A stretch of DNA of 64,000 nucleotides, taken from assembly GCF_002954405.1 (NCBI RefSeq), contig NZ_MQWC01000004.1:4200790-4264789 (forward strand). Reading direction: 5' to 3'. This DNA is from Salinibacter sp. 10B. GTDB taxonomy: Bacteria > Bacteroidota > Rhodothermia > Rhodothermales > Salinibacteraceae. The notes under the pieces were generated by a model. That model worked only from the letters and a program-made list of their open reading frames with translations. It was not told the DNA's origin and made no database searches. The position numbers and the translations under genes are program-made. Shown piece by piece: positions 24,572 to 29,540 of this stretch; the first letter of the stretch is position 1; each line of letters begins with the position of its first letter.

Positions 24572-24574
24572 CAC

Positions 24575-24662
24575 GAGTTCGGAATTTGGAGTGCGGAGTT
24601 CGGAATGGTAGCAGAGATAGGGGGATTCCCACTCCACATTCCCCATTCCGAATTCCAGAATC
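24575..24662. repeat. Self-similar inverted repeat between sufT and the regulator
   Basis: The left arm (24575-24608) is made of repeated units like TTCGGAAT and GGAGTGCGGA. The right arm (24629-24662) is its imperfect reverse complement, with about 24 of 34 positions pairing. It ends at the sufT stop codon and precedes the regulator start. Translation of such DNA gives NSELRTPNSEL-like strings, familiar as spurious protein sequence in this kind of genome. Confidence 0.65.
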
Positions 24663-25102
24663 TACATGAAGCCGAGTTCGAGGCGCGCCTCTTCGGACAT
24701 CATCTCGGGGGAGAAGGGCGGCTCAAACGTCATTTCCAGGTTTACGCTCTCGACCCCCTCCGTTTCTCGCACGGCATCCTCGGCCTGTCCCGGAAGAATG
24801 CCGGCCGCCGGACAGTTCGGCGCCGTGAGGGTCATGAGCACATCCACGTGGTTATCCTCGTCGATCTCGATGTGATAGATGAGGCCCAAGTCGTAGATGT
24901 TCACCGGGATTTCCGGGTCGTAGATTTCGCGCAGAGAGGCAACAACGCGCTCGTAGAGCTCGTTTTCAGGCGTTTCTTGAACGTGGTCCGGGATGGTTTC
25001 CGGCAGTTCAATGTCCGTATTTTCCTTATCGTCAGGGATGTCGGCAGCGCCGCCCCCTCCGCCTCCGGGGGGCATGCCGCCCATGGCTCCAGCTGGGTTC
25101 AT
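24662..25102 (-). CDS. sufT: SufT-like MIP18/DUF59 iron-sulfur assembly factor
   Basis: 146 residues. After a Gly/Pro/Met-rich N-terminus of about 25 residues lies the DUF59 domain: VVASLREIYDPEIPVNIYDLGLIYHIEI, then LMTLTAPNCPAAGILPGQ with the conserved Cys, then EPPFSPEMMSEEARLELGFM at the C-terminus. SufT and eukaryotic MIP18 help deliver Fe-S clusters to target proteins. Its place directly after sufE in the suf run supports this. The Gly-rich N-terminal extension is not part of the domain and may be flexible. A 142-bp spacer with an inverted repeat separates it from sufE. Confidence 0.9.
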   Translation of the reverse strand: MNPAGAMGGMPPGGGGGGAADIPDDKENTDIELPETIPDHVQETPENELYERVVASLREIYDPEIPVNIYDLGLIYHIEIDEDNHVDVLMTLTAPNCPAAGILPGQAEDAVRETEGVESVNLEMTFEPPFSPEMMSEEARLELGFM

Positions 25103-25180
25103 GATTCAGTTGACAGTAGTTGGAAAAAATCTTGTGTGAGGGGACGCTTCCCCGGTATTCTGCCGAATGCGAGGCATAAT

Positions 25181-25238
25181 GTATGAAACGTGACGGGTGA
25201 AGCTGCTCTCCTCTCACGGATCACGATTCACGTATCAC
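25181..25238. repeat. Imperfect inverted repeat between sufE and sufT
   Basis: The left arm GTATGAAACGTGACGGGTGA (25181-25200) resembles the reverse complement of the right arm at 25213-25238, which contains TCACGGATCACGATTCACG. Both arms repeat a CGTGA-like unit. It lies in the spacer directly before the sufE stop codon as drawn on the plus strand. Confidence 0.5.
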
Positions 25239-25244
25239 TCGGAA

Positions 25245-27165: not shown

Positions 27166-28493
27166 GTCGCAAAGCGGTCGCGGACAAGCTCCGTCACGTA
27201 CTCACTCAACGGCTCGATGCTAAGTTCACTAATCACCTCTTCCGTAAATGCCTGCAACATCAAGATGCGGGCCCGGCGTTCCGAGAGGCCGCGGGAGCGG
27301 AGGTAGAAGACGCCTTCTTCGTCCAGCTGGCCGGTGGTAGCGCCGTGACTGCACTCCACGTCGTCGGCGTAGATTTCGAGCTCGGGCTTCGTGTAAATCT
27401 GGGCATCGTTGTTCAGAACGATGGTGTCGTTCTGCTGGTACGCGTCGATCCGCTGCGAGCCGCGCGAGACGAACACCTTTCCGTTGAAGACCGCGGTGGC
27501 CTCGTCGTTGAGCACGTGCTTGTACAGCTCGTTGCTGTTGCAGTCGGGCTGCACGTGGTCCATGCGCGTGTGATTGTCCACATGCATCTCGTCCTTGCCG
27601 ATGCAGAGGCCAAAGAGGTTGGACTCGCAGAAATTGCCGTCGGCTTCCACCGTTGCGTTGTTGCGCACCACTTCGCCCGTGTAGGTCACCGTCTGGGTGG
27701 AGTAGACGCTGTCGTCCTTCTGCTGGGCGGCGCGGGTGTGCACCTGCGAGGCGGTAGGCCCTTCGTCCTGCAGGAGGTAGTGGTCCAGGTTGCCCTTCTC
27801 GCCGACGAAGGCCTCACCCACCGTATTGGTGAAGGTTTGCGCGTCGGTGAGGGAGTGCTGGGCCTCCACGATCTTTGCGATGGCGCCATCCTCCACTACG
27901 AACAGGTGCCGCGGCTGGAGGAAGAGGTCCTGGTCGGTGGCCGTCACGTGGAGGAAGAAGATCGGCTTCTCTACGACGGTGCCCGAGGGCACGTACACGA
28001 ATGCGCCGTCTTGCACGAATGCCGTGTTGAGGGCCGTCAGCGCCTCATTCTCGTAGTCGGCGTACTGGCCGTAGTGCTCCTCTACGATGTCTGGGTGGTC
28101 GTTGCCGGCCTGCGCAAGGCTGCTGACGACGACCCCAGGAGGAAGTTCACCGATGTCGGAGAGCGACTCGTCGACCCGTCCGTTCACGAGGACGACCCGA
28201 TGGGCATCCATTCCATCGATGAGAAACGGCTCAATCTCAGTCCGGTCGACCGACGTGGTCTCTCCGCCGAGGGGAAGCGTGTAGGGCCGGTCGATGATCT
28301 TTGCTATGTTCGTGTACTTCCAGGCCTCCAGGTCGTTGGTTGGAATGCCAAGCTCCGCGAAGTGCTCGATGGCGTCCTCGCGTTGCTGGGCGATGGAGGC
28401 GCTGGTCCCATTCAACGTCTGGCCGTGGTTCACCTTGAAGGCGGAGATGAACCGATCCTCCGGGCGAACGTCGGTGTCGAGGGCAGTGGTCAT
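27156..28493 (-). CDS. sufD: Fe-S cluster scaffold component SufD
   Basis: 445 residues, normal for the family. SufD joins SufB and SufC2 in the cluster-building complex. Typical blocks are WKYTNIAKIIDRPY, the beta-helix core with VEDGAIAKIVEAQHSL, and the C-terminal CSHGATTGQLDEEGVFYLRSRGLSERRARILMLQAF region, where the SufD signature His/Gly residues sit. Spacing to sufC upstream is 94 bp and holds no clear gene. The N-terminal 20 residues are variable. It is part of the leftward suf run. Confidence 0.96.
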   Translation of the reverse strand: MTTALDTDVRPEDRFISAFKVNHGQTLNGTSASIAQQREDAIEHFAELGIPTNDLEAWKYTNIAKIIDRPYTLPLGGETTSVDRTEIEPFLIDGMDAHRVVLVNGRVDESLSDIGELPPGVVVSSLAQAGNDHPDIVEEHYGQYADYENEALTALNTAFVQDGAFVYVPSGTVVEKPIFFLHVTATDQDLFLQPRHLFVVEDGAIAKIVEAQHSLTDAQTFTNTVGEAFVGEKGNLDHYLLQDEGPTASQVHTRAAQQKDDSVYSTQTVTYTGEVVRNNATVEADGNFCESNLFGLCIGKDEMHVDNHTRMDHVQPDCNSNELYKHVLNDEATAVFNGKVFVSRGSQRIDAYQQNDTIVLNNDAQIYTKPELEIYADDVECSHGATTGQLDEEGVFYLRSRGLSERRARILMLQAFTEEVISELSIEPLSEYVTELVRDRFATYV

Positions 28494-28587
28494 AATGCGA
28501 CTGGAAAGTTGAGTTCAAGGGAAAGAGAAGGGGCGGAATATCGAGGGCCGTTCCGAGGGCGCACCCGCCCCCGGAACGAGACCGACG

Positions 28588-29361
28588 CTATGCGGCCGCA
28601 GCGGCCGTCTCCTCACGGATCCAGTCGTAGCCCTTCTCCTCAAGCTTCACGGCCAGCTCCTTGTCGCCAGAGCGGGCAATCCGACCGTCGATCATCACGT
28701 GCACGCGGTCGGGCGTGATATACTCCAATATGCGCTCGTAGTGGGTGATGACGAGAAAGCCCCTGTCATCGTTGCGGAGCTTGTTGACGCCGTCCGCGAC
28801 GCTCTTAAGCGCGTCGATGTCGAGTCCCGAGTCCGTTTCGTCGAGGATGGCAAGGCGCGGCTCCAGCATGGCGAGCTGGAAGATCTCGTTGCGCTTCTTC
28901 TCGCCGCCAGAGAAGCCCTCGTTCACCGAGCGCTTCGTGAGATCGGCGTCAATGTCGACGAGGGACGCCTTCTCGCGCATGTACTGGAGGAAGTCGGCGG
29001 ACGACAGCTCGTCCTGCCCTCGGGCCTCACGGACGGAGTTTACGGCCTCTTTCAGGAAGTTTGTCATGCTCACGCCGGGCAACTCCACCGGGTACTGAAA
29101 GGCGAGGAAGATGCCTTCTTCGGCCCGCTCTTCCGGTTCCAGTTCCAGCAGGTCCTCGCCGTCATAGAGAATTTCGCCGTCCAGAATCTCGTATTCCTCG
29201 CGCCCAGCCAGCACTGCGGCCAGCGTGCTTTTGCCGGAGCCGTTCGGGCCCATGATGGCGTGGAGTTGACCAGTGTCCAGCGTCAGGTTCACGCCATTGA
29301 GGATCTTGATGTCCTCGTCTTCGACGCCAACGTGCAGGTTCTTGACTTCTAGGAGTGCCAT
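28588..29361 (-). CDS. sufC: Fe-S assembly ATPase SufC
   Basis: 257 residues from the ATG at 29361 (MALLEVKNLHVGV). Upstream in-frame codons translate the repeat spacer and are rejected. It is an ABC-type ATPase that drives SufBCD. Walker A is GPNGSGKSTLA (near residue 36), the Q-loop lies in FLAFQYPVELPGV, the SufC-specific signature is GFSGGEKKRNEIFQ, Walker B is LAILDETDSGLD, and the switch His is in VITHYERIL. It lies between sufB and sufD. The 179-bp spacer to sufB is the largest in the run and holds a repeat. Confidence 0.97.
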   Translation of the reverse strand: MALLEVKNLHVGVEDEDIKILNGVNLTLDTGQLHAIMGPNGSGKSTLAAVLAGREEYEILDGEILYDGEDLLELEPEERAEEGIFLAFQYPVELPGVSMTNFLKEAVNSVREARGQDELSSADFLQYMREKASLVDIDADLTKRSVNEGFSGGEKKRNEIFQLAMLEPRLAILDETDSGLDIDALKSVADGVNKLRNDDRGFLVITHYERILEYITPDRVHVMIDGRIARSGDKELAVKLEEKGYDWIREETAAAAA

Positions 29362-29440
29362 GTTTCGGATTGTCTTCTGAGTGTGGTGCAGTTTGAAAGT
29401 CGTGGTGCCAGGTTCAGCAAGCGAGCCCCTGGCAGGCGGG

Positions 29441-29530
29441 GTGTGTATGGAAGTGTGTACGTATGGAGGTGTGTAAGTGAGTCGGGGACACGTACACACA
29501 TACATACCTCCACACTTTCACACATACAGA
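29441..29530. repeat. Self-similar inverted repeat between sufB and sufC
   Basis: The left arm (29441-29480) contains GTGTGTATGG, AAGTGTGTAC and GTATGGAGGTGTGTA. The right arm (29491-29530) contains the opposite-strand versions, such as CACACATACATACCTCC. Each arm is itself built from tandem variants of a GTATGGAGGTGTG unit. It ends 10 bp before the sufB stop on the plus-strand map. Confidence 0.65.
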
Positions 29531-29540
29531 CCCAGAGGCG

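Follow-up and report, generated by a model that had tools for sequence, protein, structure and literature searches.

The spacers of the suf operon in a 64,000-nucleotide (nt) stretch of Salinibacter sp. 10B (contig NZ_MQWC01000004.1, positions 4,200,790 to 4,264,789; hereafter the window) hold rows of short words that face inverted rows. These elements belong to a genome-wide class, placed mostly between co-directional genes. What we observe is arrays of regular period, intergenic and mostly co-directional, with a constant polarity, an alternation of units and, between sufB and sufC, a hairpin kept over the long term. The best overall explanation is that these convergent word-array hairpins act as stem-loops at cistron ends in polycistronic mRNA, a reading that we hold to be evenly poised between right and wrong.

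Elements in the suf spacers

Each spacer was tested for a hairpin and for self-similarity, in both cases against 1000 dinucleotide shuffles (p values are those of single tests, uncorrected). The RNA folding energy of the whole spacer, in mRNA sense, was compared with 300 shuffles. All elements are given on the minus strand, and the five described first start 3-13 nt behind stop codons.

Support is strong for the sufB/C and sufT/regulator elements. The former is an octamer-array hairpin at 29441..29527 (arms 29489-29527 and 29441-29479) that starts 13 nt after the stop codon of sufB, with p =.001 for the hairpin and p =.001 for self-similarity, at a lag of 8. The latter, at 24575..24655 (arms 24625-24655 and 24575-24606), is made of GGARTNN heptamer arrays and reaches the same p values,.001 and.001, at a lag of 7. 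Support is moderate for sufD/S and sufS/E. The sufD/S element is an octamer array at 27102..27151 (arms 27133-27151 and 27102-27120), with a self-similar stretch to about 27085, a hairpin p of.038 and a self-similarity p of.001 (lag 16). In sufS/E, an octamer-like element at 25730..25813 (arms 25784-25813 and 25730-25757) carries the perfectly inverted ends GTCTGTAG and CTACAGAC, with p values of.023 and.003, respectively. The sufE/T element, at 25177..25237, consists of a CGTGANN heptamer array (25214-25237) opposite a weak inverted partner; its array is significant (self-similarity p =.021) and its hairpin is not (p =.141). Alternative gene bounds gave hairpin and self-similarity p values of.215 and.005, or.195 and.065, and three exact CGTGANN units were matched here in the genus pattern search (G000:C4:4226003). 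The sixth spacer, sufC/D, holds only a plain GC-rich hairpin that is not self-similar (28549..28578; hairpin p =.018, self-similarity p =.445).

A preliminary description of this DNA had claimed a pair of imperfectly inverted arms in five spacers. All five pairs lie where it put them, with the sufE/T hairpin falling short of significance. Its grouping of the units was correct: octamers in sufB/C, sufD/S and sufS/E, CGTGA heptamers in sufE/T and GGAAT-type heptamers in sufT/regulator. It had also proposed folding energy as a check, and here the outcome was divided, with whole-spacer values clearly below the shuffles only for sufT/regulator (z = -3.4) and sufB/C (z = -3.1), and not for sufE/T (-1.5), sufS/E (-1.2) or sufD/S (-0.9).

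A genome-wide class with a period of seven

The sample of the own genome comprised 20 stretches of 20 kb and the window (464 kb). Scored were 282 spacers with lengths of 40-600 nt and, in addition, the sufT/regulator spacer, which the gene call had merged into a gene; spacers below 35-40 nt or above 500-600 nt were left out. Gene bounds are simple codon-model calls, with cruder open reading frame (ORF) calls for four other Bacteroidota genomes used below.

Both tests were passed at p ≤.05 by 16 of 198 co-directional spacers and by none of the 41 convergent and 44 divergent ones (Fisher p =.004); for independent tests, the expected number of passing spacers is 0.7. With the six suf spacers set aside, the counts are 12/192 co-directional against 0/85 others (p =.02). 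The elements thus form a class beyond suf, as had been suspected from the operon.

In terms of period, five-mers in the 198 co-directional spacers match themselves 114 times at distance 7 (28.6 expected, z = 13) and 113 times at distance 14 (27.2 expected, z = 12), with weaker peaks (z about 4) at 16 and 21. The 85 other spacers have no peak at 7 or 14, only scattered smaller excesses, e.g. at 15, 19 and 24 (z 3-4). When three exact units are required of an array, period 7 is prominent, with 10 of 11 loci intergenic. The words found in the own genome are CGTATTG, CGTGANN, TTGAAGG, TCGAATT-like, GGARTNN and TATGGAGG-like octamers, the heptamer CGTATTN form occurring as well. Suf regions elsewhere were compared with 10 shuffles each. 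That of G009 gave 16 matches against 5.3 at distance 7, 21 against 6.7 at 8, 19 against 4.8 at 14 and 33 against 5.4 at 16; in G007 the excess is at 14 (12 against 3.9).

The window also contains a further self-similar inverted repeat, at 59571-59666 in a co-directional spacer (hairpin p =.005, self-similarity p <.005). Intrinsic terminators, defined as a GC hairpin followed by a T run, were rejected as an identity of the elements, since none of 6 terminator-like sites fell at an element (5.6 expected). Rfam gave no match above its gathering score; sub-threshold matches to mir-297 and mir-466 at sufB/C (window 29440-29529) are best read as chance, arising from the GU-rich repeat.

Distribution, placement and polarity of the CGTGA and CGTATT families

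Three consecutive CGTGANN units occur in 13/13 genus genomes, 19 times in the own genome, where the reversed word is absent; it was matched once in one other of the 13. Among 296 Bacteroidota genomes, the CGTGANN triple is present in 25, 4 of them from the genus, and the CGTATTN triple in 7, 3 of them from the genus. The reversed control word, AGTGCNN, is itself an abundant heptamer word in some Bacteroidota (92, 125 and 56 triple matches in G146, G261 and G209), and so is no clean null there.

Clusters of the two families in the own genome are co-directional in 14 of 17 cases, convergent in 3 and divergent in none. A wider set of 52 CGTGA clusters from several species, overlapping with these 17, was drawn from the matches listed for 13 genomes. 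Clusters with a common exact 19-mer were merged, so that some distinct loci (e.g. L214) are absent from the set, and some best hairpins extend into a called gene by as much as 80 nt. Among the listed matches, 42 clusters are co-directional, 6 convergent and 4 divergent, with 0 inside called genes, and 33/52 have a hairpin at p ≤.05. In 27/48 clusters, a stop codon is no more than 25 nt away from the hairpin or array, and a start is as close in 12/42.

The polarity of these hairpins is strict. The G-rich CGTGA row occupies the 5' arm, on both strands, in 33/33 significant hairpins of the genus set. The array falls within the best hairpin in 44 clusters, 43 of one polarity and 1 of the opposite, and the hairpin of this exception is not significant. 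A separate scan, covering 2.3 Mb with some loci overlapping, gave 19 pairs facing inward, of which two overlap at one locus, and 0 facing outward. Orientation to transcription was dropped as the meaning of this order, since a hairpin reads identically on both strands; for the same reason, the G-rich-first order belongs to the element itself. Background skew was likewise rejected as the cause: significant plain co-directional hairpins divide into 12 positive and 11 negative, against 14 and 2 for the elements. The skew is -0.27 within 20 nt of starts, and the best hairpins of non-significant spacers lean likewise, 88 to 62.

In four other Bacteroidota genomes (20 stretches), 10 of 20 clusters have significant hairpins, 10/10 with the same polarity. 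Three non-significant clusters carry the CGTGA row on the opposite arm, and 3/20 clusters lie inside crude ORF calls. G330, a genome of another family (3.7 Mb), holds 460 CGTGANN triples; inward-facing arrays were present at the 5 places sampled in it (L299-L303), the long ones being of slippage type.

Alternation of units and comparison of arms

Neighbouring units tend to differ and alternate units tend to agree. Over 80 genus CGTGA arrays, adjacent units had the same free dinucleotide in 3/122 cases (14.8 expected), and every second unit in 23/42 (5.1 expected). The CGTA family behaves alike, with 0/33 for adjacent units (9.8 expected) and 9/10 for every second (3.0 expected); in the own genome this family gives a clear 0/25 and 6/6. 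G330 has the opposite pattern, that of plain slippage, with adjacent identity in 18/28 cases (9.1 expected).

Of the 33 significant CGTGA hairpins, 32 have at least 2 in-phase units on both arms, and in these the free letters were compared between arms. The best register gave 56 pairing dinucleotides against 57.1 permuted (p =.65). With inner positions at 45/128 against 41.9 (p =.30) and outer ones at 47 against 41.8 (p =.17), arm-to-arm templating as a current process was rejected. At a single locus, sufE/T of L011, the arms match fully; given this locus, the arms may have had an old fold-back origin.

Orthologous suf spacers in the genus and family

The orthologous spacers come from the genus and the family, at most 20 loci per spacer, with close relatives among them (L139-L141; L016-L017); the hairpin cut is p ≤.05. 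The sufB/C hairpin is significant in 17/20 loci, or 17/23 with three further family loci, and outside the family in 1/5 (L112 of L112-L116). For sufD/S the count is 9/16 and for sufC/D 5/20.

At sufB/C, a recognisable plain hairpin is common to G003, G004, G007 and G010. Self-similar hairpins are found in the window and G008 (TATG/GTGTG octamers), in G009 and L011 (GAGCAYGG-like) and in L012 (GCGTCCGG-like), and the sequences of family members differ from those of the genus. In sufE/T, as judged by eye, the window, L010, L011 and L014 all keep the CGTGA word, with dinucleotides that have changed. The preliminary idea of a structure kept while its sequence drifts therefore fits sufB/C, with its mostly unlike sequences, and in part sufD/S; it does not describe sufS/E, sufE/T or sufT/regulator.

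The sufD/S spacer of G009 contains a 263-bp insertion (L010:7394-7656) that splits the 3' arm of the octamer element. Its inverted ends, imperfect and about 12 bp long, were identified by eye; no second full copy was found in the sampled loci.

Comparison with known repeats

The comparisons draw on excerpts of the cited papers. Closest are heptamer repeats found between genes in Xanthomonas and Nostoc, GGGAATC and GGGGA(C/T)T, of which the suf-type arrays are read as a variant. In the excerpted account, these repeats are generally without link to insertion sequences and form convergent inverted pairs in Xanthomonas (70 cases in Xcc, 75 in Xac); they lie on average 28 nt from the 5' neighbouring ORF against 160 nt from the downstream one, few are divergent, and the G-rich strand is near stops (PMC4692102). 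The units of the Salinibacter arrays likewise combine fixed with free positions over 7 nt, and the arrays form convergent inverted pairs close to the upstream ORF. Tandem 7-nt units are over-represented between genes here too, yet three suf elements are octameric, and the convergent pairs put the G-rich word first (19 vs 0; 43 vs 1). In contrast to the one G-rich, quadruplex-forming word per genome of that study, as far as its excerpt extends, Salinibacter uses several words, octamers included; its units alternate, and words differ in successive spacers of one operon. Neither GGGAATC nor GGGGAYT is the word. Because the words are CGTGANN, CGTATTN, GGARTNN and octamers, we treat the arrays as a variant and not as part of the Xanthomonas/Nostoc family.

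In the trnL group I intron of Nostoc, the P6b hairpin is also built of 7-nt words, with a similar fold and very different sequence. It uses one of two words, one class having repeatedly been replaced by the other, and 14-nt motif insertions are described; it differs in being intron-borne and in having only two word classes (PMC4476775, in part). The TAACTGA repeats of Beggiatoaceae, Cyanobacteria and Bacteroidetes are intergenic 7-nt direct repeats, patchy across phyla, with indels between two strains mostly of 7 nt and, for Microcystis, other heptamers mixed in. Unlike the Salinibacter arrays, they are mostly direct, with one indirect set, and lie upstream of start codons in the main species (PMC4679880, in part). 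Several words per genome are not new in themselves, since they are recorded for Microcystis (PMC4679880) and Calothrix (PMC4692102).

Repetitive extragenic palindromic (REP) sequences and bacterial interspersed mosaic elements (BIME), with their REP-associated tyrosine transposase (RAYT), are spacer palindromes as well, some ≤15 nt from a stop codon (PMC3733652, PMC12306157, both in part); E. coli REPs at this distance stall ribosomes (PMC12306157). The Salinibacter elements, unlike these, have no common sequence and arms of tandem units. With no PF01797 (RAYT) gene in the genome, and no near-identical copies either of the sufB/C element in the whole genome or of the five suf elements in the sampled own loci, the arrays fall outside REP/RAYT.

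Octamers, alternation and the change of word between neighbouring spacers do not appear in the excerpted accounts of heptamer repeats. Those accounts centre on one word each and leave function open, whereas Salinibacter has several words, three kinds of them in the successive spacers of one operon. A literature search on such repeats returned, among the matches listed, no work on Salinibacter repeats and no mention of the genus. Further precedents are likely to be Jackman and Mulligan 1995 and the STRR papers.

Possible role and alternative explanations

In these hairpins, 7- or 8-nt units, each a fixed word with free letters, form a row opposite an inverted row of that word, usually close to a stop codon where two co-directional genes adjoin a spacer. 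Under the stem-loop explanation, the arrays, once transcribed, would act as stem-loops behind the stop codon that protect the upstream message at its 3' end or slow terminating ribosomes, with unequal expression of genes within one operon as the outcome. We infer stem-loops at cistron ends because the near-stop position recalls the stalling E. coli REPs (PMC12306157, in part). Such action is probably best founded at sufB/C, where, in the window's clade, a plain hairpin may have been remade out of octamer arrays. Arrays would grow within an arm by two-unit duplications (14/16 nt), with no present copying from arm to arm, and some agency would maintain the word. A putative role in mRNA stability is plausible.

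Several observations weigh against this explanation, and its mRNA role itself is one that we infer. The suf regions of G003, G004 and G010 have no clear excess at 7 or 14 (10 shuffles). The sufB/C hairpin is not significant in the family loci L107 (p =.114), L111 (p =.369) and L118 (p =.323), and hairpins are mostly not kept at sufT/regulator (4/17 loci), sufE/T (2/13) and sufS/E (1/14, the one being the window itself). No significant hairpin is present in 19/52 CGTGA clusters, and 4/52 are divergent (44/282 sample spacers are), so their depletion from divergent spacers is suggestive only. A convergent spacer, L122:4120-4310, has an octamer-like hairpin (0/200 shuffles) whose self-similarity (p =.065) misses the cut, and the class is therefore probably not limited to co-directional spacers. 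The alternation of CGTGA units is not significant in the own genome (adjacent 0/19 against 2.2; every second 2/6 against 0.7). Finally, word deviations in 118 unit columns are mostly uncompensated: 54 are one-armed, 6 are two-armed and not pairing, and 2 are two-armed and still pairing (0.7 expected by chance). Compensatory evolution was rejected on these counts; nor do the free dinucleotides (56 vs 57.1) support a compensatory drift of the arms. The uncompensated deviations argue that pairing is not the main selected feature. Since free letters do not pair above chance either, the complementarity of the arms stems mainly from their shared word and not from covariation; in the CGTGA family, it is the word itself that is kept.

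The same deviations would fit a view of the arrays as a mutational by-product, with slippage-prone heptamers and octamers piling up in tolerant spacers and functionless hairpins arising from arrays in both orientations. This is rather unlikely in our view, and it accommodates the different words within one operon, the 14-nt similarity inside arms, the presence or absence that varies between species and the plain slippage of the distant G330. Plain slippage would not be expected, however, to produce the strict polarity (19 vs 0; 43 vs 1) or the avoidance of identical neighbours (3/122), and the sufB/C hairpin is kept across most of the family. A conserved pentamer with two free neighbours, and the recurrence of word and polarity in far Bacteroidota such as G330, would suit sites for sequence-specific DNA- or RNA-binding factors with the hairpin secondary; we consider this improbable, as several words in one genome would require several factors. 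Non-autonomous mobile elements of REP/REPIN or miniature inverted-repeat transposable element (MITE) type would likewise be dispersed, palindromic and intergenic, with many word copies per genome. Conventional mobility, raised in the preliminary description, is nevertheless very improbable. The sufB/C element has no near-identical copy in the whole genome (best off-site match E 0.138), the five suf elements have none in the sampled own loci (best off-site match 27 nt at 93%), and over this same scope there are no homogeneous MITE-like copies. RAYT-driven mobility was rejected, as the own genome (G000), 99.97% complete, has 0 PF01797 genes; 6/13 genus genomes have such genes.

We also put forward, as a doubtful proposal, that one genome can have several parallel word families, with inward-facing arrays that follow a single grammar, and that these families take each other's place at orthologous sites between cistrons, the word and not the pairing being maintained. 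The grammar would be a fixed word with free letters, neighbours that differ, alternate units that are alike and the G-rich row first on both strands. If true, this would imply a word-specific factor or a mutational engine common to bacterial groups. The rules of polarity, alternation and unpaired free letters across arms are measurable, and lead to testable predictions on the origin of the arrays and on their effects in polycistronic mRNA.

The suf locus and its annotation

The window has a GC content of 61% and the host genome a size of 4.75 Mb. For its SufD, the identity to records of Salinivenus and Salinibacter is 79-92%. In minus strand order, the operon consists of sufB (29541..31001; PF01458 9e-78 and PF19295, from a profile scan of 29541-31007), sufC (28588..29361; PF00005 8e-24), sufD (27156..28493; PF01458 1e-74), sufS, a class V aminotransferase gene (25817..27073; PF00266 7e-150), sufE (25245..25676; PF02657 1e-45) and a sufT-like gene (24662..25102; PF01883 3e-19). 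Downstream of sufT, also on the minus strand, is the gene of a sigma-54-type activator (21620..24571; PF00158 3e-36, PF02954 1e-9).

The longest ORF of this activator begins within the sufT/regulator element (window 24572-24646), and the extra N-terminus ends HSELRTPNSELV. This extension out of the element is very likely false. For annotation, this calls for caution, as one such element can give a regulator a spurious N-terminus.

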